Source: Zobellia galactanivorans (lineage in GTDB: Bacteria; Bacteroidota; Bacteroidia; Flavobacteriales; Flavobacteriaceae). From it: a stretch of DNA of 64,000 bases. The stretch lies in NCBI RefSeq assembly GCF_000973105.1, contig NC_015844.1, positions 1,360,501 to 1,424,500 of the forward strand, given 5' to 3'. Both the position numbers and the translations under genes were made by a program. Numbering within the stretch: position 1 is the first letter of the stretch; each line of letters begins with the position of its first letter. Shown piece after piece: positions 10,546 to 21,480 of the stretch. A model generated the notes under the pieces. It had not been told where the DNA came from and did not search any database. It worked only from the letters and a program-made list of their open reading frames with translations.

Positions 10546-11448
10546 CTAGTAAGCCCACATATCTTGTTCACGGTCTCTAATGACCTCTTGAATCCTAGTG
10601 GCTTCAAGCAATTGGAACAAGGCGTTGTCGGTGATATAATCGTTTACCTTTCGATCGCCATGAACGTTGTCTTCCCTATAGATTACACCGTTGAAACGTC
10701 TTGCGTTAAGCAACATATCAAAAGAGATAGGCTGTGCAGAGTTTCTTTGGTTGAAGACTTTGGCCTCATGCAATATCTGTCGGGCATCTGGGTACCATAC
10801 CCAAAAAAGCTCAACCTTGGCATCACTGGGATCCATAGAGTCATCATCAATAAAGTTAACATCCGGGGCAACCGGGGCTATACCTAACAAGCGGTACTTT
10901 AGCTCTCCCTGACGTTTATCAAAATACCACATACCTTTAATTCGGTATTCCTCAATATCGGCTGCGGTAAGGGTTCTCTTCATTACATACTCAGGAGACA
11001 ATTCCTCCCCAGCATTGATCTGTTCGTAACCGTAATCGGTAGTATCTACCTTTTGCAGTGTACTCTCAAGATCACTAAACTTTCGTTTATCGGTAAAATA
11101 AGAATCCGCATACACATCTTTCAGTCTACCATTTTTGATGTTCTTAATAAGCACATCGTACAATGATCTTCTGTCGTTGCCTATATCGATAGTGTCAGTA
11201 GGGTAGTATAAGGGGAAGTTCACCCTTTCGTCAAGATCAATAACTTCCCAAACGGTCTTAGACCAAAGGATATCACGATCATCAACATAACCATACTCAA
11301 GGGGAGCATCATTGTCCAAAGCTTTCTGAGCTTCGGTCTTGACACCTATTTCCTCGGGCTTTTTGGCGTTCAAGATGTTCGCCTGCGCCATCATGGAAAC
11401 CGGTAACAAAGTTACTGCACCAATTACTAAAGCATTTTTCCAATTCAT
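10546..11448 (-). CDS. gldN: Gliding motility / type IX secretion protein GldN
   Basis: A 300-residue protein with signal peptide MNWKNALVIGAVTLLPVSMMAQ, hence periplasmic. Its sequence (for example YGYVDDRDILWSKTVWEVIDLDERVNFPLYYP split over residues about 50-85, and FWVWYPDARQILHEAKVFN) belongs to the GldN/PorN family. In the type IX secretion system GldN pairs with the lipoprotein GldK to form the periplasmic ring beneath the outer membrane. It is the last gene of gldK-L-M-N, 59 bases after gldM, and is followed by a strong terminator. Confidence 0.95.
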   Translation of the reverse strand: MNWKNALVIGAVTLLPVSMMAQANILNAKKPEEIGVKTEAQKALDNDAPLEYGYVDDRDILWSKTVWEVIDLDERVNFPLYYPTDTIDIGNDRRSLYDVLIKNIKNGRLKDVYADSYFTDKRKFSDLESTLQKVDTTDYGYEQINAGEELSPEYVMKRTLTAADIEEYRIKGMWYFDKRQGELKYRLLGIAPVAPDVNFIDDDSMDPSDAKVELFWVWYPDARQILHEAKVFNQRNSAQPISFDMLLNARRFNGVIYREDNVHGDRKVNDYITDNALFQLLEATRIQEVIRDREQDMWAY

Positions 11449-11507: not shown

Positions 11508-13067
11508 TTAGTTTGTTATCTCCACTACAACCGGAGATACTTTCTTCAATTTATAACTCTTGTTATTTGTAATGTAAGCTTGGATATCAAATATCTGAAC
11601 AGCATCACCTCTTTTGGCTCTTTTAAGGGCCGACTTGGCATTAGCGTTCAATCTGTTTCCGTTTACGCTTACGGTAGGCTGACCAGGAACCTTGAACTTA
11701 AATCCGCTAACGGCAAGGTTCAAGTCAAAATCAAAGTCCTCTAACATTGCACCGATAGTAGCGATTTCCATGTTGGCCCTAGGCATTTTAGCACTACCTG
11801 TCTGCTTACTTACAGAACCGGCAGGTCTTGGAATATCCTTAATCCTGAACTCAGATTTAGAAGATATGGTCTGACCATCGGGTAATTTACCAGATGCGGT
11901 AATCGTAACCGTTCTACCTGTACCAGGGTTCATAACATACTTGCTACCTCCTACTGATTTCAAACCAGGTGCAGAAGCGTTAACTTTGTTATTAGGTATA
12001 CCAGGTATAGAAATACTCATTGGGTTAGCTACACCACGATAAACAACGTTCATCTTATCGGCAGCGATCAAAGCAGCATTAGGCTTGCTAATAGTAGCAA
12101 AACTATTCTTAACCGGTACGGGAATCTCTTCGCCATCTTGCTTAAAGTACAATGTACCCTCTACAACGTGATCACCTGCAGCACCTGCACCGATCAACAT
12201 TTTAACACCACCGGCCTCTAATTTATAGTCGGTACCTTCAGAAAGTTTTCTTCCATCAAGGGTCAACTCAGCTTTTACTGGTGTAGAAGAATTATCGGTT
12301 TTACTAATGATAATCTTACCGTCGTACTTCTCACCGGCATAAAAGGCAGACTTACTAGCCTGTAGCGATGTTGCAAAATTCTTAAGTGATACTTGGCTGG
12401 TCAACTCACCTTCCAACATTCTTTTCAGAGCGTCTTCCTCAGTGGCCTTAACGTCTGCTTGAAGCGCAGTAATCTTGGCTAAAGAAGCTACTAAGGGATA
12501 TCCTTCGTAGTGGTAATTGATCCAATCTTGTTTTGTACCGTCCCTTTTTACTTCCTGACCGTTTTCATCACCGGTCTTGAAGCGGACATTTACAGATTCT
12601 TTCAAATCCTTTGGTACGATAGCCGCAACTTGTGTACGGTAATCATTGATTCTTTTCATAAACTCCTTTCCACCTTCGGAAAGATTATCGCCTTGAAAGA
12701 ATTTTTGATCTAAGAAATCGGAATTGTCCATTCGTGCATAATCTTTTGCATCTTCCAGACCTTCTGTCATTCCTTGTTTAAGACCCTCAAGATAGTCGTA
12801 ATAATCTTGCGACAATTGCTTGATTTTTTGGGCGTCTTGATAAAGCTTTCCGTATTTCTCCGAATCTTCGGAAGCTTTAGTTTCTAGACCATCTAAGAAA
12901 GCTAGGTTACTTTCTGTGGTCTTTGCGTTAGAAGCCTCCATCTTTTCGTTCATAATACCGAAAGCTGCAAGTACTTCTTTACTCATGTTTAACGCCAGCA
13001 TAGCGATGAAGATCAAATACATAAGATTGATCATCTTCTGACGTGGTGTTGCTTTTCCTCCTGCCAT
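11508..13067 (-). CDS. gldM: Type IX secretion motor shaft GldM
   Basis: A 519-residue protein with a short cytoplasmic N-terminus, one membrane helix (MINLMYLIFIAMLALNM) and a long periplasmic part. The helical region to about residue 220 is followed by beta-domains (VYRGVANPMSISIPGIPNNK, a GldM Ig-like region). In the family GldM dimerises, its helix threads the GldL pentamer, and it rotates to transmit proton-motive energy across the periplasm to GldK/GldN. The upstream spacer to gldL is 56 bases. Nothing is unusual in length or composition. Confidence 0.96.
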   Translation of the reverse strand: MAGGKATPRQKMINLMYLIFIAMLALNMSKEVLAAFGIMNEKMEASNAKTTESNLAFLDGLETKASEDSEKYGKLYQDAQKIKQLSQDYYDYLEGLKQGMTEGLEDAKDYARMDNSDFLDQKFFQGDNLSEGGKEFMKRINDYRTQVAAIVPKDLKESVNVRFKTGDENGQEVKRDGTKQDWINYHYEGYPLVASLAKITALQADVKATEEDALKRMLEGELTSQVSLKNFATSLQASKSAFYAGEKYDGKIIISKTDNSSTPVKAELTLDGRKLSEGTDYKLEAGGVKMLIGAGAAGDHVVEGTLYFKQDGEEIPVPVKNSFATISKPNAALIAADKMNVVYRGVANPMSISIPGIPNNKVNASAPGLKSVGGSKYVMNPGTGRTVTITASGKLPDGQTISSKSEFRIKDIPRPAGSVSKQTGSAKMPRANMEIATIGAMLEDFDFDLNLAVSGFKFKVPGQPTVSVNGNRLNANAKSALKRAKRGDAVQIFDIQAYITNNKSYKLKKVSPVVVEITN

Positions 13068-13123: not shown

Positions 13124-13780
13124 TTAGTTTCTGTTCATTGCAGTCAACATACCTCCGTAGACTCCGTTCAAAGAAGAAAGGTTGGTAGCCAATGACTCCA
13201 TTTGATCTTTTAGGGCAGATGCGTTCTGTACAACTTCTTCGTTTACCGAAGCTTGTTTGCTAGCGCTTTCCAACTGTACTTTGTACAAGCTGTTCAAAGA
13301 TTCCATCTGGGCTGCGGCCTGAACCATTTCCTCAGAATATTTTCTTGTAGACTCCATAGCGTCAACCGTTGGGGCAATACCTTTGGCAGCACCTTCAAAG
13401 TTGCGGATACTAGAACCAAGGCTCTCCATTAAGCTGGCATCAACACCGGCTTCTTTTAGCAAGTTGTCCAATTTAGCGGACAATGAAGCCTCAGCTTCCT
13501 TGATTTCCTGGGCTTCGTTACTTCTAGCAACTCCTGAAGAAGCACCACCGGCCAATTCTGGATATACTAAAGACCAATCGTACTCGTCATCTACAGGCTC
13601 AAATGCACTAATGGCAAAAATAAGAGCTTCAGTGATAAGACCTATCGCCAAAAGAAGACCACCTGTTAAAGGTCCGAATTCCCAGTGAAGTATCTTGAAT
13701 AACGCACCAATAATTACTACCGACGCTCCAAGACCGTAGGCCATGTTGAATAACTTTTTTGTTGATTTTGACTGTGCCAT
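13124..13780 (-). CDS. gldL: Type IX secretion motor stator GldL
   Basis: A 218-residue protein with two N-terminal membrane helices (about 12-32 and 38-60) and a long cytoplasmic helical tail. The residues reported as important for proton conduction in F. johnsoniae GldL have clear counterparts here: Lys29 and His32 in the first helix and Glu51 in the second (LITEALIF). With GldM it forms the proton-driven inner-membrane motor for T9SS and gliding. It is followed by gldM and preceded by gldK, with a 139-base spacer after gldK. Confidence 0.95.
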   Translation of the reverse strand: MAQSKSTKKLFNMAYGLGASVVIIGALFKILHWEFGPLTGGLLLAIGLITEALIFAISAFEPVDDEYDWSLVYPELAGGASSGVARSNEAQEIKEAEASLSAKLDNLLKEAGVDASLMESLGSSIRNFEGAAKGIAPTVDAMESTRKYSEEMVQAAAQMESLNSLYKVQLESASKQASVNEEVVQNASALKDQMESLATNLSSLNGVYGGMLTAMNRN

Positions 13781-13919: not shown

Positions 13920-15275
13920 CTATTGTGTTGAATCTTCTTCTCCCATATAATCCTGTACCGTTCTGAAACCGATGTAACTACGTGCCGAATCGGCATATTC
14001 GTAATCTCTTGTACTTACCTGTAGGAAGTAAGCAACATCTTTCCAAGAACCACCTCGTATTACTTTTCTAGCATTTGCCCCGTCGCCACCGTTGGGGTTC
14101 ATTGTAGAAACGAATTCGTAAGATGATGGATCATAGCTGGAGTTGGTCCATTCAGACACGTTACCGGCCATGTTGTAAAGGTTGAAGTCGTTAGGCTCAT
14201 ATGATTTCGCTTCTACAGTGTATAAAGCTGCATCGGCCGCATAATCGCCTCGTTGTGGTTTAAAGTTTGCCATAAAGCAACCTGTATCGCTTATCACGTA
14301 AGGTCCGCCCCATGGGTAGGTTCCTCCTTCGATACCACCTCTGGCAGCATATTCCCATTCAGCTTCGGTAGGTAACCTGAACTGGTTTACAAATTGCTTG
14401 CCTTTACTTTTTTGGTCATCGTTCTTGAACTTGGTCCTCCAGTTACAGAAGGCCCTGGCTTGCTGCCAAGACACCCCGACTACAGGATACTCGCTGTACG
14501 CATCGTGCCAAAAGTAATCGTTGTGCATCGGTTCATTGTACGAGTATTCAAAATCACGGATCCAAACGGTTGTATCTGGATAGATTTCAAGTTCTTCCTG
14601 ACGGATAAAATCTTTTCTGCTTCCGGTTCTAGAACGGGCGGCAGCTTCGATATCCATCCAGCTGTACTTGTACTTCAATTTGGTTACATCGATAGTACGC
14701 TGACCGTTATACGATTCCTCTTCGGGAATGTACAAGGAATCCATAACCTCGGTATAATACTCATCTGGATATTCAGAGATATCCCAGATCAAATCTTCTT
14801 CTTTGTTCAAAGCGCGACCTTCAAAACCAGTTTCGCCCATGCCGGCATAATTGTCCAACATGTACTTGTCGTAAGCTGAAAGTTTTGTTGTGTCCGCATC
14901 CTTGAACGCATACTCGCCAATACCTCCGTCTTCCGGCCCCAAACCTAGTTCGTCGGCCAATATGGCCAATCGCGTCCTGGTAATGGAATCCTGCACCCAT
15001 TCTACGAACTGACGATACTCGCTGTTCGTAATCTCGGTATCATCCATGTAGAACGATCTGACCGTAACGGTCTTTGTTGGTGCGTTCAGAACTTTAGCCT
15101 GGTCTTCTTCGGATTTACCCATGATAAAGGAACCTCTTGGAATGAGCTCCATACCATAAGGTTTCTCAGGGTACCATTTCTTTCCTTGGACCCCGACTAG
15201 CTCTCCTTTGGTTTTTGACCCGCAACTGCTGAGCAAAAAAACAAACGCTATAGATGATAACAATAGCTTTTTCAT
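13920..15275 (-). CDS. gldK: Type IX secretion lipoprotein GldK
   Basis: A 451-residue lipoprotein: MKKLLLSSIAFVFLLSSC places the lipid-bearing cysteine at residue 18. The rest has the formylglycine-generating-enzyme (SUMF1) fold, with IPRGSFIMGKSEEDQ, PVVGVSWQQARAFCNWR, FRLPTEAEWEYAARGG and MAGNVSEWTNSSYD, as expected of GldK/PorK. The family lost sulfatase-maturation activity and acts as an outer-membrane-tethered ring subunit with GldN. It is the first gene of gldKLMN; an arginase-fold gene lies 123 bases upstream on the same strand. Confidence 0.96.
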   Translation of the reverse strand: MKKLLLSSIAFVFLLSSCGSKTKGELVGVQGKKWYPEKPYGMELIPRGSFIMGKSEEDQAKVLNAPTKTVTVRSFYMDDTEITNSEYRQFVEWVQDSITRTRLAILADELGLGPEDGGIGEYAFKDADTTKLSAYDKYMLDNYAGMGETGFEGRALNKEEDLIWDISEYPDEYYTEVMDSLYIPEEESYNGQRTIDVTKLKYKYSWMDIEAAARSRTGSRKDFIRQEELEIYPDTTVWIRDFEYSYNEPMHNDYFWHDAYSEYPVVGVSWQQARAFCNWRTKFKNDDQKSKGKQFVNQFRLPTEAEWEYAARGGIEGGTYPWGGPYVISDTGCFMANFKPQRGDYAADAALYTVEAKSYEPNDFNLYNMAGNVSEWTNSSYDPSSYEFVSTMNPNGGDGANARKVIRGGSWKDVAYFLQVSTRDYEYADSARSYIGFRTVQDYMGEEDSTQ

Positions 15276-15398
15276 ACTTTAGGTTAAATTTCGATTCTGG
15301 TTACTAACTGCAAATACTATGATTTAATTCTACACTCTAAAACTGTGATTTGATCAAATTATTGTATTGAAGGCAATTATACTATATTTTTTTTCAAC

Positions 15399-16556
15399 TC
15401 AATTAAAACCTTTTTTATAGGCCTTGAACCACCGCTCAGGAATGTTTTGGTCGCATGCTTCCAGATAGTCCTTTTTGGTGCATGGTAATAACGCCACCGA
15501 ATTTGATTTAGTATGCGGCGTCAAAATAGAAGGGACCTCTACCCACCACCTATCGGTCAGGTGACTCTTGTGAAAGGTAAGCTCCTCGGTGTCTGTTGGA
15601 ACAATATACTTGGTAAAGTTTTCACTACTCTCAAATGGCGATTCGTTTCTTCGAAAATTATAACCTTCGATGAAATACCAAATTATCTGGGCCATCAGCT
15701 GACACGATTGATTGGTATTCTCCATTTCATAGAGTCCAAATATGTTTACTTTATCACTTATTCCCGCATATCTGGCAATGGCACATATCTCGCGCCCGGT
15801 AAAACCGTTGGGCGAAAAGTTATCAGACAATCCTATTTCACTTGCCCTTACGGCACGGGCATCCATACTGATCATATGGGCGTTGCGCAGCACCGGCTCG
15901 GCCAAGCTAATATCGGAACCCAGTTCACCCAAACGATAGGCATCAAAAAACAGACGCTCCATCAGATCGATTTCCTCTTGTGCGTTAAAATAGCTCTGAT
16001 AGCCGATATTGGAAAAGTTGAACAGGTTATTGGGCTTATCGGTAATGATCTTGCTCATGTACGAATGCGATGAAATCAGCTCGTCGTCCATTCCAAAATC
16101 GAACCTACTGTCTACCGCCACGAGATTGACCAAGTCGATAATACCGTCGAACGACCGGTAAGCCGGGTAGGTAATGTCTTGGGTCGCCCCTATTACTATA
16201 GGTATGATTTTCTTCTCGAGAAGGGCCGCCAAGGTATTCTTTACTACAAAATACGTATCCTCTACCGTTGCTCCTTCCTCAATATCGCCCATATCGGCCA
16301 ATTTTGAATCCCAGTTGCCCAACAACAACTTGTACAATTGAATCCGTATAGCCGAGACATCGAGCTTTTCGGTCTTCTTTTCAAAAGCGTTTCTCGATTC
16401 TTTCACACCTAGAATGGCAATAGACACCCCCTCTAGGTCGGGAATACCGTCCCTTGTGGTGTGCAACCTTGTATGCTTGCCCAAAGACTGGGCCGCAAAT
16501 AGTTCACAGTGGGCAATTACTTTATCTTCTACTGGAACCAAAAAATCAAATGCCAT
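15399..16556 (-). CDS. Arginase/ureohydrolase-fold protein with degenerate metal site
   Basis: A 385-residue soluble protein with the arginase-family topology, often labelled formimidoylglutamase in flavobacterial genomes. The three metal-binding motifs are recognisable but damaged. The usual GGxHS is GATQD (His replaced by Gln126), DAHxD is DSRFD (His replaced by Arg151), and SxDxD is SMDAR (second Asp replaced by Arg234); Asp149, Asp153 and Asp232 remain. Three of six Mn ligands are therefore missing, so hydrolase activity is unlikely. The gene lies between topA and gldK on the same strand. A structural or regulatory role is my inference from that placement; a divergent active enzyme is not excluded. 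Confidence 0.8.
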   Translation of the reverse strand: MAFDFLVPVEDKVIAHCELFAAQSLGKHTRLHTTRDGIPDLEGVSIAILGVKESRNAFEKKTEKLDVSAIRIQLYKLLLGNWDSKLADMGDIEEGATVEDTYFVVKNTLAALLEKKIIPIVIGATQDITYPAYRSFDGIIDLVNLVAVDSRFDFGMDDELISSHSYMSKIITDKPNNLFNFSNIGYQSYFNAQEEIDLMERLFFDAYRLGELGSDISLAEPVLRNAHMISMDARAVRASEIGLSDNFSPNGFTGREICAIARYAGISDKVNIFGLYEMENTNQSCQLMAQIIWYFIEGYNFRRNESPFESSENFTKYIVPTDTEELTFHKSHLTDRWWVEVPSILTPHTKSNSVALLPCTKKDYLEACDQNIPERWFKAYKKGFN

Positions 16557-16589
16557 TTATCTTGAAAGATTATTTGTGTTTAAACCATA

Positions 16590-16619
16590 GAGACGCATAT
16601 AATGCGCCTCCGTTTTTTT
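16590..16619 (+). terminator. Plus-strand hairpin with T-tract, no cognate plus-strand gene
   Basis: A 9-bp stem with one C·A position (16590-16598 with 16602-16610, which becomes a G·T pair on the minus strand) is followed on the plus strand by CG and seven T. No plus-strand gene ends nearby; it sits between two minus-strand genes. Confidence 0.45.
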
Positions 16620-16668
16620 CATTTTCGTTTATAAAACCCGCCCTAAAGGACGAAGCTATCGGCACAAG

Positions 16669-19161
16669 CTATTTCTTTTTGGCCTTGGGCTTAGCCTTTG
16701 CTTTTTTCTTCGGCGTTTTCTGTTCGATCATTTTTTTGGCCTCGTCCAAAGACATCTTGGCCGCATCAACGGTCTTGGCCAGCTCTACCTTTACCTTACC
16801 TTTTATAATGTTGTGCCTGCCCCAACGTGCCTTTTCGATACGTATACCTTCTTCAGGCCAGTTTTGCACTACCTTATCGATTTCTTTTTGTTTTTTAGCT
16901 TCAATCAACTCAATAAGGTCATCATTCGAAAGGTTATCGAAATCATATTTCTTATTAACGTTAATAAACATACCGTCCCATTTGATAAAAGGCCCGAACC
17001 TTCCGGTTCCTTTCGTTACCTCCTTACCTTCATAGGTATAGATGGGGGCATCGGCTTTTTGCTTTTGCTTTATCAACTCGACCGCACGGTCGAAGTTTAC
17101 GTCGAAGGCGCTCTCTCCCGCTTCCAGGGACACGAATTTCTTCCCAAAACGCACATAAGGTCCAAACCTACCTACATTCGCCTCGATTTCCTCTCCTTCA
17201 TAAACCCCTAGCTTTCGCGGAAGCTTGAACAACTCCATTGCCTCATCGTAAGTAATAGTGGTCAAGGACTGTTCGGGCAAAAGGCTTGCAAACTTGGGTT
17301 TTTCCTCATCATCAACGGTACCCATTTGAACCATAGGCCCAAAACGCCCCAAACGAACGGACACTTGACGGCCCGTTTTAGGGTCCTCGCCTAAAATACG
17401 TTCGCCACTGGCTCGATCGGCATTTTCTTGCACATCGAGTACATTCGGGTGGAAATCTTTGTAAAAATCCCTCATCACCTTCTGCCAATCTTCTTCTCCC
17501 TCGGCGATCTCATCAAAATCTTCCTCTACCTTGGCGGTAAAATTATAATCAAGGATCGTGGCAAAATGACTTACCAAAAAGTCGTTTACGATCATACCGA
17601 TATCGGTAGGCACCAGCTTACCTTTGTCGGAACCGACCATTTCAGAGAGTTTTTTCTCTTTTACGGCACCAGCTTCCAAAAGCAACTGCACATAATTTCG
17701 TTCCGTACCCTCAACCGTTCCTTTTTCTACATAGCCCCTATTCTGAATAGTGGAAATGGTCGGCGCATATGTAGACGGTCGACCAATACCTAGTTCTTCG
17801 AGCTTTTTCACCAAAGATGCTTCGGTAAAGCGGTATGGCGGCCTTGAAAAACGTTCGGTCGCGGTAATATAATTGTTTTTTAAAGCTTCGCCCACTTTCA
17901 TGGCAGGAAGCATTCCTTCTTGCTCTTCGGCCACATCTTCTTCATCAAGGCCTTCCATATACACCTTAAGGAAACCATCGAACTTAATGACCTCCCCATT
18001 GGCCGTAAATAGCTCTGAATGGGTACTTGCCTTAATTTTTACGTTCGTACGTTCCAATTGGGCATCGCTCATCTGCGAGGCTATGGTACGCTTCCAAATC
18101 AATTCGTATAATTTAGACTGGTCGCGCTCAAGTGATGGCGATTGATTGGTTATATCCGTGGGTCGAATGGCCTCGTGAGCCTCTTGTGCCCCTTTCGACT
18201 TCCCTTTAAAGTTACGGACGGTACTGTACTTTTCACCGTAGTTGTCTATAATGGCATCTTTGGCCGCCGCTATGGCTTCCCCCGAAAGGTTCACACTATC
18301 GGTTCTCATATAGGTGATAAGCCCCGCCTCGTATAGACGCTGTGCCACTTGCATTGTTCTACCAACCGAAAAATAAAGCTTTCTTGAAGCTTCCTGCTGT
18401 AAGGTAGAGGTGGTAAAAGGTGCCGATGGCGACTTTTTTGCGGGTTTTTTATCTAGGTTCCCAACTGAAAAATCAGCCCCTATGTTTTCGTTCAAAAAGG
18501 CCTGTGCCTCTTCTTTTGTAGGGAAGGTTTTGTTCAATTTTGCCGTAAACACACTACCCTCAAGGGTCTTGAACTCTGCCGACACCCTAAAGGACGCTTC
18601 TGCTGTAAAGGCCTCAATATCCCTTTCCCGTTCCACTATAAGACGAACGGCAACGGATTGTACCCTACCGGCCGAAAGTCCCGGTTTGATCTTTTTCCAT
18701 AACACGGGAGAAAGCTCGTACCCCACCAAGCGGTCTAACACCCTTCTGGCCTGTTGGGCATTGACCAAGTTATAATTGATCTCTCGCGGATTTTCTATCG
18801 CTTTCTGTATGGCAGACTTGGTAATGGAGTTAAAGACAATACGCTTGGTCTTATTTTTATCTAGGCCCAAGGTTTCCGCTAAATGCCAGGAAATGGCTTC
18901 TCCTTCGCGGTCTTCATCACTTGCGAGCCATATTGTTTCCGCTTTCTTGGCCAAATCCCCAAGTTTTTTCACCAAGGCTTTCTTGTCTTTATCGACAATA
19001 TATTTGGGCTTAAAATCATTCTCGACATCTACCCCTAGTTCTTTGGAAGGTAAATCGGCAATATGCCCGAAACTGGACTCTACCTTATAATCCTTTCCTA
19101 AAAACTTTTCTATCGTTTTTGCCTTTGCAGGTGACTCTACTATTACTAAATTCTTAGCCAT
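16669..19161 (-). CDS. topA: DNA topoisomerase I
   Basis: An 830-residue type IA topoisomerase. The Toprim domain is at the N-terminus (NLVIVESPAKAKTIEKFLG, then DEDREGEAISWHL with the acidic Mg site). The nicking tyrosine lies in GLITYMRTDSVNLS. Motifs KPGLSAGRVQSVAVRLIVERE and GIGRPSTYAPTI are typical. The C-terminus has no four-Cys zinc fingers; instead there are repeats with GRFGPMVQMG, GRFGPYVRFG and GRFGPFIKWD, and a Lys/Ala/Pro tail that should help DNA binding. It relaxes negative supercoils. The start ATG 19161 has a -7 box just upstream (19182-19189). Confidence 0.97.
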   Translation of the reverse strand: MAKNLVIVESPAKAKTIEKFLGKDYKVESSFGHIADLPSKELGVDVENDFKPKYIVDKDKKALVKKLGDLAKKAETIWLASDEDREGEAISWHLAETLGLDKNKTKRIVFNSITKSAIQKAIENPREINYNLVNAQQARRVLDRLVGYELSPVLWKKIKPGLSAGRVQSVAVRLIVERERDIEAFTAEASFRVSAEFKTLEGSVFTAKLNKTFPTKEEAQAFLNENIGADFSVGNLDKKPAKKSPSAPFTTSTLQQEASRKLYFSVGRTMQVAQRLYEAGLITYMRTDSVNLSGEAIAAAKDAIIDNYGEKYSTVRNFKGKSKGAQEAHEAIRPTDITNQSPSLERDQSKLYELIWKRTIASQMSDAQLERTNVKIKASTHSELFTANGEVIKFDGFLKVYMEGLDEEDVAEEQEGMLPAMKVGEALKNNYITATERFSRPPYRFTEASLVKKLEELGIGRPSTYAPTISTIQNRGYVEKGTVEGTERNYVQLLLEAGAVKEKKLSEMVGSDKGKLVPTDIGMIVNDFLVSHFATILDYNFTAKVEEDFDEIAEGEEDWQKVMRDFYKDFHPNVLDVQENADRASGERILGEDPKTGRQVSVRLGRFGPMVQMGTVDDEEKPKFASLLPEQSLTTITYDEAMELFKLPRKLGVYEGEEIEANVGRFGPYVRFGKKFVSLEAGESAFDVNFDRAVELIKQKQKADAPIYTYEGKEVTKGTGRFGPFIKWDGMFINVNKKYDFDNLSNDDLIELIEAKKQKEIDKVVQNWPEEGIRIEKARWGRHNIIKGKVKVELAKTVDAAKMSLDEAKKMIEQKTPKKKAKAKPKAKKK

Positions 19162-19282: not shown

Positions 19283-20557
19283 TTACTTCAAATCGAAGGT
19301 ACTCAGCAATCGAATGCTATCGTTCAAATACACATATTGATACAGCACTTTATCACCTATCATCAACAGGGATTCCTCTAGGGGAATCACATCATAGGTC
19401 ACAATGTCCTTAAAGTGGCTTACCAATTTTAAATCATTTACATCGGTCTTGTCATACACCTTTAGGCCATCATCCCCATCACAAACAAAAAGCCAACTAT
19501 CTTTAAAACCTATACCATAAGGACCTTCCAACGGATAAAATTTCTCCAGTTCAGGACTCGCCAAATTTGAAACATCAACGATATAGAGTCCGCTCTCGGT
19601 GTTCCCACAGGAGTTTTCGCCCCTTAGGGTAACGAAGGCATAATCGCCATCGACCACTACAGGATCACAAGCCGTGCCATGGACAAATTCTGAAACGTAC
19701 TTCGGTTTTTCAGGCGATGAGATATCGTAGATATACATACCTTGGGTACCTCCTATAAACAATATATCCCCTTGATTATATATGGTCTCGATCGCCCCGT
19801 TTACATAAACATCCTCTAAGGTCTTGGGTTCACTCAAATCGGAAATATCAAAGACACTGATACTGGACCACTCTACCGCGTACAGATAATCGTCTACGAT
19901 CTTAAACCGCGCCAATGATCCACCCTGCCCCGTCTCGGAACTAGTGTTACTAAAGGCGACGTCGCCATTGGGACCGCCGACCCCGTATTTATCCTGAAGC
20001 TCTTCTTCCGAAAGGCGTTGCGACTTTACCTCCCATCCAACAATAGCTTCCTTACTGGCATCGAAACCCTCATAATCATAAAAATCGGCCTGTGGCCAAT
20101 CGACATCAAAACCTACGGTACACCAAAATTGCTGGTAGATGGCCCCTTCCATTCGCTTCACCATCTTAACTGCATTGATATCCGAAATATCCATAATGAC
20201 CAAATCGCCATAACTATCGGCATATAGGTGGTCATTTTTGATGGAGATATCATAATTCCCCTCCAACTTGATAAACGAAATGGCATGCGGGTTTACGGGA
20301 TTACTGTTATCGATTACATGAAAGCCCCGGTTTACATCGTTAACGAAAACATAATCTTTATAGGCGTAGATTTTACCCGATTCTTTGATGGGCACAGGCT
20401 CGGTAACGGCAACGGCCTCCTCTTTAAACTGTTTTAAATCGGCAGTAATGGGTGTTGCCACAAGATACTCGCCCCCTTGGGCATCGTCTTTATCATCGGC
20501 ACAGCCGATAAAGGCCAGCACAGCAATTACCCATACTAAACCTAGGGTCTTTTTCAT
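19283..20557 (-). CDS. LVIVD-repeat (beta-propeller) lipoprotein
   Basis: A 424-residue lipoprotein: MKKTLGLVWVIAVLAFIGC with Cys19, then ADDKDD, an acidic stretch of the kind that directs lipoproteins to the cell surface in Flavobacteriia. The body holds repeated blades of the LVIVD type: NVDRGF-like HVIDNSNPVNP, LVIMDISDINAVK, ISVFDISDLSEPK, MYIYDISSPEKPK, LYIVDVSNLASPE and LKVYDKTDVNDLK. These repeats are predicted to form a propeller. No enzymatic motif is seen and the ligand is unknown. It is a single-gene unit bounded by terminators on both sides. Confidence 0.85.
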   Translation of the reverse strand: MKKTLGLVWVIAVLAFIGCADDKDDAQGGEYLVATPITADLKQFKEEAVAVTEPVPIKESGKIYAYKDYVFVNDVNRGFHVIDNSNPVNPHAISFIKLEGNYDISIKNDHLYADSYGDLVIMDISDINAVKMVKRMEGAIYQQFWCTVGFDVDWPQADFYDYEGFDASKEAIVGWEVKSQRLSEEELQDKYGVGGPNGDVAFSNTSSETGQGGSLARFKIVDDYLYAVEWSSISVFDISDLSEPKTLEDVYVNGAIETIYNQGDILFIGGTQGMYIYDISSPEKPKYVSEFVHGTACDPVVVDGDYAFVTLRGENSCGNTESGLYIVDVSNLASPELEKFYPLEGPYGIGFKDSWLFVCDGDDGLKVYDKTDVNDLKLVSHFKDIVTYDVIPLEESLLMIGDKVLYQYVYLNDSIRLLSTFDLK

Positions 20558-20578
20558 AGTTTTTGGTTTGATTGGTTG

Positions 20579-20603
20579 AAAAACGGTCGATACCCTATCG
20601 ACC
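20579..20603 (-). terminator. Terminator after the membrane protein gene at 20671
   Basis: A perfect 8-bp inverted repeat (20585-20592 with 20596-20603, loop of 3) followed on the minus strand by GTTTTT, 68 bases past the stop. Its place just before the next minus-strand gene would also allow an operator role. Confidence 0.6.
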
Positions 20604-20670
20604 TATCTACCAATCAGATGCGCCAAGCAATGTAACGTTGCGTAGCTTCCTAAAAAGTTATATCGACAAG

Positions 20671-21402
20671 CTAGACCCCATCCTCTTTGAAACCGACACC
20701 ATTTTTATACATATAATAGGTAGGAATCTTAGAGAACATGGCGGTAAAGAATATTCCCACCCCACAAAGTACAATACCAAGCTCGGCCATTATACCCGAA
20801 AGAATGATCAATCCGAAAATAATGAACCAATTCTTGTTGCCCAATTTAAAGCAAGCCTTTAGTATATCTATCGAAGATAATTCTTCGTTAAACGCAAAAA
20901 ATGCCGGTAACAGGGACAGGGGTACCATGGCATATATTAATCCGACACCACAAAGCAACATTCCCGCTATGGCCACCAACAACATTAAAAGCCCCAGCCC
21001 CAAACTTTTCTTCCATCTGCCATTTTTCAAGTAATAAAAATAATCCTCGGGTTCTGAAATCCCTAGGTCTTTCATCCTACAAATTCTCATAAAGGCCGCA
21101 TTTAGGGCCACCGATATGGTCATAACCCCCAAGATCAACACAGGCATCAGAAGAAACATGGCCAAACCCATTACAGGTGCCATCACATCACTTTCGAACG
21201 TAGCGGGATTACTGACTCCCAGCACAATAAAGGGAACATAAAAAATCAGGTAAAGGGGAATCATTAGCACCAAAGTCAACAAGATCGTTATAAACCCTTG
21301 CAACCATACTTTTTTAAAAAGCTCAATAGCGCTACTAAAGACGGTGCCAAAATCGAGGATAGGGTTCTGTTCTATTTTTTCGGTAAGCTGGTTCAAGGTC
21401 AT
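20671..21402 (-). CDS. Integral membrane protein of unknown function
   Basis: A 243-residue protein with about five or six hydrophobic helices (for example LQGFITILLTLVLMIPLYLIF, VMGLAMFLLMPVLILGVMTI, FIIFGLIILSGIMAELGIVL). The soluble N-terminus reads MTLNQLTEKIEQNPILDFG. ATG 21402 is used because the in-frame extension to 21441 adds only a basic leader without support. No catalytic motif is seen; such multi-helix proteins in Flavobacteriia are conserved and uncharacterised. It is divergent from miaB and ends in a terminator-like dyad. Confidence 0.75.
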   Translation of the reverse strand: MTLNQLTEKIEQNPILDFGTVFSSAIELFKKVWLQGFITILLTLVLMIPLYLIFYVPFIVLGVSNPATFESDVMAPVMGLAMFLLMPVLILGVMTISVALNAAFMRICRMKDLGISEPEDYFYYLKNGRWKKSLGLGLLMLLVAIAGMLLCGVGLIYAMVPLSLLPAFFAFNEELSSIDILKACFKLGNKNWFIIFGLIILSGIMAELGIVLCGVGIFFTAMFSKIPTYYMYKNGVGFKEDGV

Positions 21403-21480
21403 AATTTTTAGTTTTCGCCTAAGATAAAAAGATCTTGACACGAGTACAGTTGTAAAATAATATTAAAATTCACTGTCAAT

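Follow-up and report, generated by a model that had tools for sequence, protein, structure and literature searches.

A widespread family of arginase-fold proteins in the Bacteroidia that has probably lost hydrolytic function, encoded in Zobellia between topA and gldKLMN

Overview

The 64,000-nucleotide stretch of Zobellia galactanivorans DNA analysed here (the window) carries, at 15399–16556 on the reverse strand, a gene of 385 codons with an ATG start, here called ARG, whose product has the arginase fold and only three of the six Mn ligands of that superfamily. Our preferred reading, to which we give a probability of roughly 0.6, is that ARG belongs to a Bacteroidia-wide family of pseudo-ureohydrolases of HutG-like descent that act as cytoplasmic, non-hydrolytic binding proteins, and that the gene is often the downstream mate of topA, with gldKLMN as a separate unit. 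The loss of the site, the gain of a domain and the retention of the gene point to a job other than that of an arginase in many Bacteroidia, and the place of ARG beside secretion genes looks more like neighbourhood than partnership.

The ARG protein and its fold

Re-reading of the sequence found the reading frame, the motif readings and the 123-base spacer to gldK that were given in the original prediction all to be correct. The arginase assignment holds, yet by sequence it is weak. ARG matches the Pfam Arginase family (PF00491) over residues 63–278 with 28.8 bits (cut-off 22), and its 27.7 bits with the NCBIfam model for hutG (TIGR01227) lie far under the cut-off of 229 and leave it outside the HutG family; in a search of PDB sequences the top match is the agmatine ureohydrolase 3pzl (E = 7e-7). 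Among 28 members of the ARG family (set A1), 27 match PF00491 at E 0.01 and "Arginase" is the only family match, so names based on PF00491 or hutG are probably wrong in substance for these proteins.

An AlphaFold2 model of ARG (81 sequences; mean pLDDT 82.6, pTM 0.87) supports the arginase-fold assignment. In a Foldseek search with this model the best 50 of 190 matches (E 0.001 or better) all belong to the ureohydrolase superfamily, the first being metformin hydrolase (8ryi, E = 2.1e-12); further matches are the Bacillus subtilis formimidoylglutamase 3m1r and the Trypanosoma cruzi formiminoglutamase 4myl (target TM 0.76). The PF00491 match and the structure matches thus place ARG in the ureohydrolase superfamily by fold. 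The strongest 19-residue hydropathy window of the protein reaches only 1.29, so by hydropathy it is probably cytoplasmic. The nearest named relatives among the matches listed are from Zobellia, with 95 and 93% identity.

Loss of the metal-binding site

In the arginase literature, active ureohydrolases carry six Mn ligands in the motifs GGDH, DxHxD and SxDxDxxDP, and we name the corresponding ARG columns, and position 277 as that of the catalytic Glu, accordingly. Motif 1 (residues 123–127, GATQD; 16176–16190, reverse strand) has Gln126 in place of His, motif 2 (residues 149–153, DSRFD; 16098–16112, reverse strand) has Arg151 in place of His, and motif 3 (residues 230–234, SMDAR; 15855–15869, reverse strand) has Arg234 in place of Asp. 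D149, D153 and D232 are kept. These are the replacements that had been reported for the Zobellia protein, and we confirm them.

To follow these positions through the class we aligned 108 sequences (Zobellia ARG plus 107 hits, one to several per family) from 65 GTDB families, and compared them with 22 intact relatives, 16 of which come from other classes of Bacteroidota and the rest of which are paralogues within Bacteroidia. Column 126 is Gln in 71, His in 12 and Asn in 8 of the 108, column 151 is Arg in 27, Lys in 22 and His in 4, and column 234 is Ser in 57, Asp in 3 and Arg in 3; the retained acidic residues are found in 89 (D149), 87 (D153) and 94 (D232). The same columns in the 22 intact relatives have H126 in 19, D153 in 21 and D149, H151, D232 and D234 in all, and 18 of these proteins have all six ligands, the remaining four keeping five. 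No aligned family member has five or six ligands; 13 keep four, 65 three, 15 two, 12 one and 3 none. The earlier statement that half of the ligands are lost is therefore right for Zobellia ARG and not for the class, in which D149, D153 and D232 vary as well. Nearer to Zobellia (ARG itself and 80 named Flavobacteriaceae among the matches listed) Q126, D149, D153 and D232 are present in 81 of 81 sequences, position 151 is Arg in 72 and Lys in 9, and position 234 is Arg in 73, Asn in 4, Thr in 3 and His in 1.

The rest of the pocket has not been spared. Column 277 is Glu in 61 of the 108 family members (another residue in 47) versus 22 of 22 intact relatives, and the Gly found at position 164 in 21 of the 22 is lost in the ARG family; overall, the old pocket positions are more variable than the family's new conserved positions (see below). 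Intact motifs at shifted positions were sought in the 108 unaligned sequences, where GG-x-H occurs in 13, DxHxD in 3 and SxDxD in 11, and none has all three. Only one of the three with DxHxD has it at motif 2, and neither DxHxD nor SxDxD occurs anywhere in Zobellia ARG. The substitutions are thus no alignment slip, and the ligand loss is real and not a matter of chance. A salt bridge made by Arg or Lys151 in place of the metal was considered and is not established, all three Asp being present in 39 of the 49 sequences with R/K151 versus 37 of the 59 with other residues there (P = 0.06).

Family-specific residues and an added C-terminal domain

Judged by the alignment, constraint in the ARG family is shifted from the metal site to other residues. 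E220, W293 and F328 are invariant in all 108 members, Q187, R224, G251, G265, W337 and C359 are present in 107, R208, W338 and Y364 in 105, D363 in 103 and R336 in 99; F328 is replaced by Tyr in 11 of 81 close sequences (Zobellia ARG and 80 Flavobacteriaceae among the matches listed). The counterparts of Q187, G251 and G265 are conserved in the intact relatives too (the Flavobacteriaceae were fetched by patterns over residues 175–189, and the Q187 count among those 80 is not independent). For R208, E220, R224 and the C-terminal residues the 22 intact relatives show no conserved equivalent.

The last of these residues (F328, R336, W337, W338, C359, D363 and Y364) lie in a family-specific C-terminal domain of 83 residues (residues 303–385; 15402–15650, reverse strand), for which AlphaFold2 predicts strands and two helices; modelled alone it has a pLDDT of 74.7, a moderate confidence. 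All 22 intact relatives have gaps at R336, W337 and C359, the domain being missing there. A profile of the domain gave nothing significant against PDB sequences (best E 0.077) or Pfam (best E 0.0087, in 1 of 32 members), and Foldseek with the domain model found no PDB match at E 0.001 or better. Thirteen genomes were scanned for it: it was found within ARG in all seven carriers, no convincing copy was seen outside the ARG gene, and the six genomes that lack ARG gave no match better than E 0.18.

The original prediction of a non-hydrolytic member is thus well supported at the level of sequence (none of 108 members with six ligands, no Glu at 277 in 47, constraint moved elsewhere), and the ARG family is probably one of conserved, non-hydrolytic pseudo-ureohydrolases. 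Some residual activity, or a site for a single metal ion, is conceivable, since D149, D153 and D232 are mostly retained and 13 members keep four ligands.

Distribution, ancestry and selection

A single-protein search found an ARG match at E ≤ 1e-5 in 276 of 295 Bacteroidia genomes, the weakest few of which are uncertain (e.g. G061 and G098, both at E 4e-8). About 7 kb on each side of chosen hits was fetched, giving 120 stretches, of which 13 were left out of the family alignment: a broken copy (L171), three intact paralogues (L172–L174) and nine T9SS loci (L175–L183), eight of the latter coming from genomes with no ARG match. The ninth is from G061, a genome whose highly divergent ARG is itself aligned as L147.

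In a tree the 111 family tips fall together with none of the 22 intact sequences inside, on a stem of length 0.97, with a node support of only 0.31. Four intact relatives from outside Bacteroidia match the hutG model with 183–210 bits, just below its cut-off of 229, so the ancestor of ARG was probably formimidoylglutamase-like (HutG-like). No viral relatives of ARG were confirmed.

ARG is under strong purifying selection, with a dN/dS of 0.02–0.03 against two other Zobellia genomes, a value that is only approximate because dS (1.1–1.5) is near saturation. A pseudogene or decaying gene is ruled out for Zobellia ARG by this ratio of about 0.03. By construction the alignment contains open frames only, and the group reads as a pseudoenzyme family and not as a failing gene. 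The broken copy comes from genome G057 (GTDB family f15), a single-contig assembly in which ARG (L171:6995–8182) is spread across three reading frames and interrupted by TAG stops, through either sequencing error or decay.

The topA-ARG-gldK locus

In Zobellia, ARG lies between topA and gldKLMN, all on the same (reverse) strand. Upstream is topA (16669–19161; TIGR01051, 718.6 bits, cut-off 456.4), which encodes a type I DNA topoisomerase and is the likely operon mate of ARG, and downstream are gldK (13920–15275; TIGR03525, 611.2 bits), gldL (13124–13780; TIGR03513, 228.6 bits), gldM (11508–13067; TIGR03517, 436.9 bits) and gldN (10546–11448; TIGR03523, 277.4 bits). Conservation of the order topA-ARG-gldK was borne out in close relatives: among the Flavobacteriaceae matches listed, gldK is downstream in 80 of 80 and topA upstream in 79 of 80, the remaining one being ended by a contig edge. 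Class-wide, 53 of 108 loci, representing 35 of 65 families, have a same-strand gldK downstream of ARG, and topA is upstream in 50 of those 53. The claim that ARG is kept next to the T9SS core operon thus stands for these loci and not for the remaining sampled ones, four of the 55 without gldK having <3.5 kb of contig remaining.

The short gap is on the topA side. Between topA and ARG it has a median of 6.5 nt (quartiles 1 and 68) in Zobellia and 79 close relatives among the matches listed, and a median of 26 nt in 55 loci across the class, at most 30 nt in 28 of them and above that in 27; on the gldK side the gap between ARG and its neighbour is ≤30 nt in 0 of 49 loci, with a median of 142 (gene starts in the class-wide figures were taken by alignment or as the first Met). 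These gap sizes suggest that ARG is probably co-transcribed with topA in many lineages. This coupling is not universal, because 49 of 108 loci place ARG next to neither topA nor gldK, 27 of the 55 gaps exceed 30 nt and that of Zobellia itself is 112 nt.

The 123-base spacer between ARG and gldK (15276–15398, reverse strand) is well conserved. Its mean commonest-base frequency is 0.76 over 118 columns in 81 Flavobacteriaceae loci among the matches listed, whereas 44 fourfold sites within ARG average 0.43 in 80 such loci; 37 of the 118 columns stand at ≥90%, and a conserved run, ATcGAAATTTAACCTAAagT, lies immediately 5′ of the gldK start. Such conservation is as expected of a control region, and the spacer is probably the control region or leader of gldKLMN. 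Two papers treat gldK–N as an operon of its own (PMC5790014; PMC5879114, where it is predicted by software).

A scan for sigma70-type promoters gave no candidate; Bacteroidetes use another type of promoter, with a −33/−7 pattern. This pattern occurs in 1 of 81 ARG-gldK spacers (0.93 expected) and in 7 of 27 longer topA-ARG spacers (0.27 expected), in both cases in loci among the matches listed. The topA-ARG gap of Zobellia, longer than in most close relatives among the matches listed, holds a palindrome (16590–16610) that is single copy in the whole genome and has a like sequence in two Zobellia relatives. An Rfam scan of 15000–17000 gave nothing at E 0.1.

Elsewhere ARG has other neighbours. 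Of the 55 loci in which gldK is not adjacent, 20 have a gene resembling NAD-dependent epimerases/dehydratases on the opposite strand, no more than 2.6 kb from ARG and in 18 of them directly adjoining it (e.g. L131:5958–6980; two were tested against Pfam). In GTDB family f36, ARG runs directly into a same-strand D-Ala-D-Ala carboxypeptidase-like frame in four of six loci (L120, L123, L124 and L125), identified by PF02113 in L120 and by similarity to L120 in the others; three of these four have open frames that overlap. Among 58 loci, murF-like genes are near ARG in five and gldJ-like genes in three (each count includes two extra loci); the gldJ label is our presumption, from resemblance to GldK, a Pfam match to FGE-sulfatase and the gldJ-murF pairing. 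We found no theme common to these alternative neighbours (epimerase, carboxypeptidase, murF). Since the contexts differ and 49 loci have neither topA nor gldK, the job of ARG needs no one fixed neighbour.

Relationship to the T9SS

The original prediction had also suggested a possible role with the T9SS or in control. In its most specific form ARG would be an accessory or regulatory protein in the cytoplasm that serves the type IX secretion (T9SS) and gliding machine, for instance through the cytoplasmic portion of GldL or through the expression of gldKLMN, and we regard this as possible though rather unlikely. Speaking for it are the downstream gldK of the 53 loci and of all 80 listed close relatives, the gldJ-like and murF-like neighbours just described, and co-occurrence: among 295 genomes ARG and GldM are both present in 268, ARG only in 8, GldM only in 12 and neither in 7 (Fisher P = 7e-6, with kinship ignored and several of the absences representing one lineage or incomplete genomes). 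Two of the seven genomes with neither protein (G130 and G259) carry SprA_N.

A core component would be present wherever the T9SS is, and ARG is not. Seven GldM-positive genomes that are 99–100% complete (G017, G107, G170, G199, G226, G242 and G290) lack ARG: BLAST gave no match at E 1e-5, and the A1 profile none better than E 0.04; conversely, ARG is present in G256 (99% complete), G059 (95%) and G206 (70%), in which searches for GldM and SprA_N found neither. Nor does ARG co-evolve with the T9SS core as its members do with each other. In 48 loci with all six proteins, the partial correlations of tree distances (corrected for TopA) between ARG and GldK, L, M and N are 0.25, 0.17, 0.16 and 0.23, compared with 0.56–0.76 among the four Gld proteins. 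Weak as they are, these values were matched in only 9, 32, 37 and 3 of 500 label shuffles, respectively, which counts in favour of some T9SS connection.

The neighbourhood itself tells a similar story. The conserved block is wider than ARG and gldKLMN: of 107 loci, 36 also have miaB and 35 a sigma54 activator. With Zobellia as reference, the two genes directly beyond topA are kept in 0 and 0 of these loci and the gene beyond gldN in 4. Because miaB and the sigma54 activator are also kept, conservation of the block does not prove a common function. In 45 of the 53 loci with gldK one extra ORF lies between ARG and gldK, the single one tested against Pfam being porP/sprF. The two Zobellia genes beyond topA (19283–21441; 424 and 256 aa) have no NCBIfam match at E 0.01 and were found in 0 of 107 loci at E 1e-20.

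Adjacency to gldK is thus not evidence that ARG is part of the T9SS, as the whole block is conserved and the short gap is to topA. Set beside the weak correlations and the mismatches in presence, this leaves the T9SS role weakly supported; it is possible and not favoured, binding in the cytoplasm, often in coupling with topA, being likelier on the present comparisons. No paper on an ARG-type gene beside gldK was found in a search of mostly open-access literature; in the accessible parts of PMC9169529 and PMC4755523 both words occur, but "arginase" means something else.

Possible function of ARG

The history that we favour would begin with a HutG-like enzyme that lost its Mn pair, and often the catalytic Glu too, and that acquired a C-terminal beta-alpha domain. 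ARG most likely acts in the cytoplasm by binding, without hydrolysis. The degenerate pocket (Q126, D149, D153 and D232) could at best accommodate a cationic ligand, and the working surface would be formed by R208, E220, R224 and W293 together with F328, R336, W337, W338 and C359 of the C-terminal domain; these residues probably make up the interface of the arginase domain with the added domain, and through it would contact a putative partner. In many relatives topA has ARG as its apparent downstream mate, and gldKLMN would start as a separate unit beyond the conserved spacer. What the comparisons show is the ligand loss, the conservation throughout the family, the extra domain, the purifying selection and the gap sizes; we infer the place in the cytoplasm, the lack of catalysis, the binding of a ligand or partner and the joint transcription with topA.

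Three other readings keep more of the ureohydrolase or enzyme character of ARG, and we consider each of them improbable. An enzyme with one metal ion or none, acting on a different substrate, would fit the frequent retention of Q126 (71 of 108), D149 (89), D153 (87) and D232 (94), but it is hard to square with three members that have no ligand at all and 27 that have one or two, with Glu at 277 in only 61 of 108 and the loss of Gly at 164, and with a pocket that varies more than the new conserved positions. It is similarly doubtful that ARG has been re-tooled around a new catalytic or allosteric site at the domain junction (Cys359, Glu220, Arg208, Arg224, Arg336 and Asp363), making it a topA-coupled switch by which a metabolite or thiol state would be linked with DNA supercoiling, and perhaps with gldKLMN transcription.

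ARG could also serve as an inactive subunit within a mixed ureohydrolase, where it would stabilise or tune an intact paralogue encoded elsewhere in the genome, as suggested by metformin hydrolase chains being its best structural matches (among the best 50 of 190), by the precedent of MetCb, the metal-free partner of MetCa (PMC11271267), and by a further PF00491 match in about 73 of 76 genomes, the one in Zobellia being of agmatinase type. Yet ARG is the sole PF00491 match in G231 and G256 at E up to 10, so a helper-subunit role cannot be general; G251 likewise has a single PF00491 match (position not listed), and neither the new domain nor the new invariant residues are needed for such a role. 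We hold it to have little chance of being right.

Comparison with known systems

HutG (TIGR01227; PDB 3m1r, 4myl and 1xfk) shares the fold of ARG and is among its nearest relatives by profile and structure. The intact HutG-like relatives retain the ligands as well as the catalytic Glu and have no extra domain, whereas ARG has lost three ligands and scores 27.7 against the required 229 bits. The agmatinase SpeB (TIGR01230) encoded in the same genome (G000:C1:2352190–2352963) belongs to the same superfamily as ARG, but has all six ligands and no C-terminal domain.

A parallel in kind is the MetCb subunit of metformin hydrolase (MetCb/MfmB; PDB 8ryi, 8snf and 8x3g), like ARG a bacterial arginase-fold pseudoenzyme. 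According to PMC11271267, MetCb has no bound metal, makes its partner MetCa active and is encoded beside it; ARG, in contrast, has no second PF00491 gene nearby in the 64-kb window and has a C-terminal domain of its own. The same source describes a Trypanosoma brucei arginase-like protein (Hai et al. 2015), a mammalian agmatinase-like protein and the arginase domain of a Fusobacterium ornithine decarboxylase/arginase as being without the normal binuclear site, and by that description they resemble ARG in metal-site loss, in other lineages. Metal-free arginase-fold proteins have thus become known one by one, mostly without a function, and ARG would represent a whole widespread family of them.
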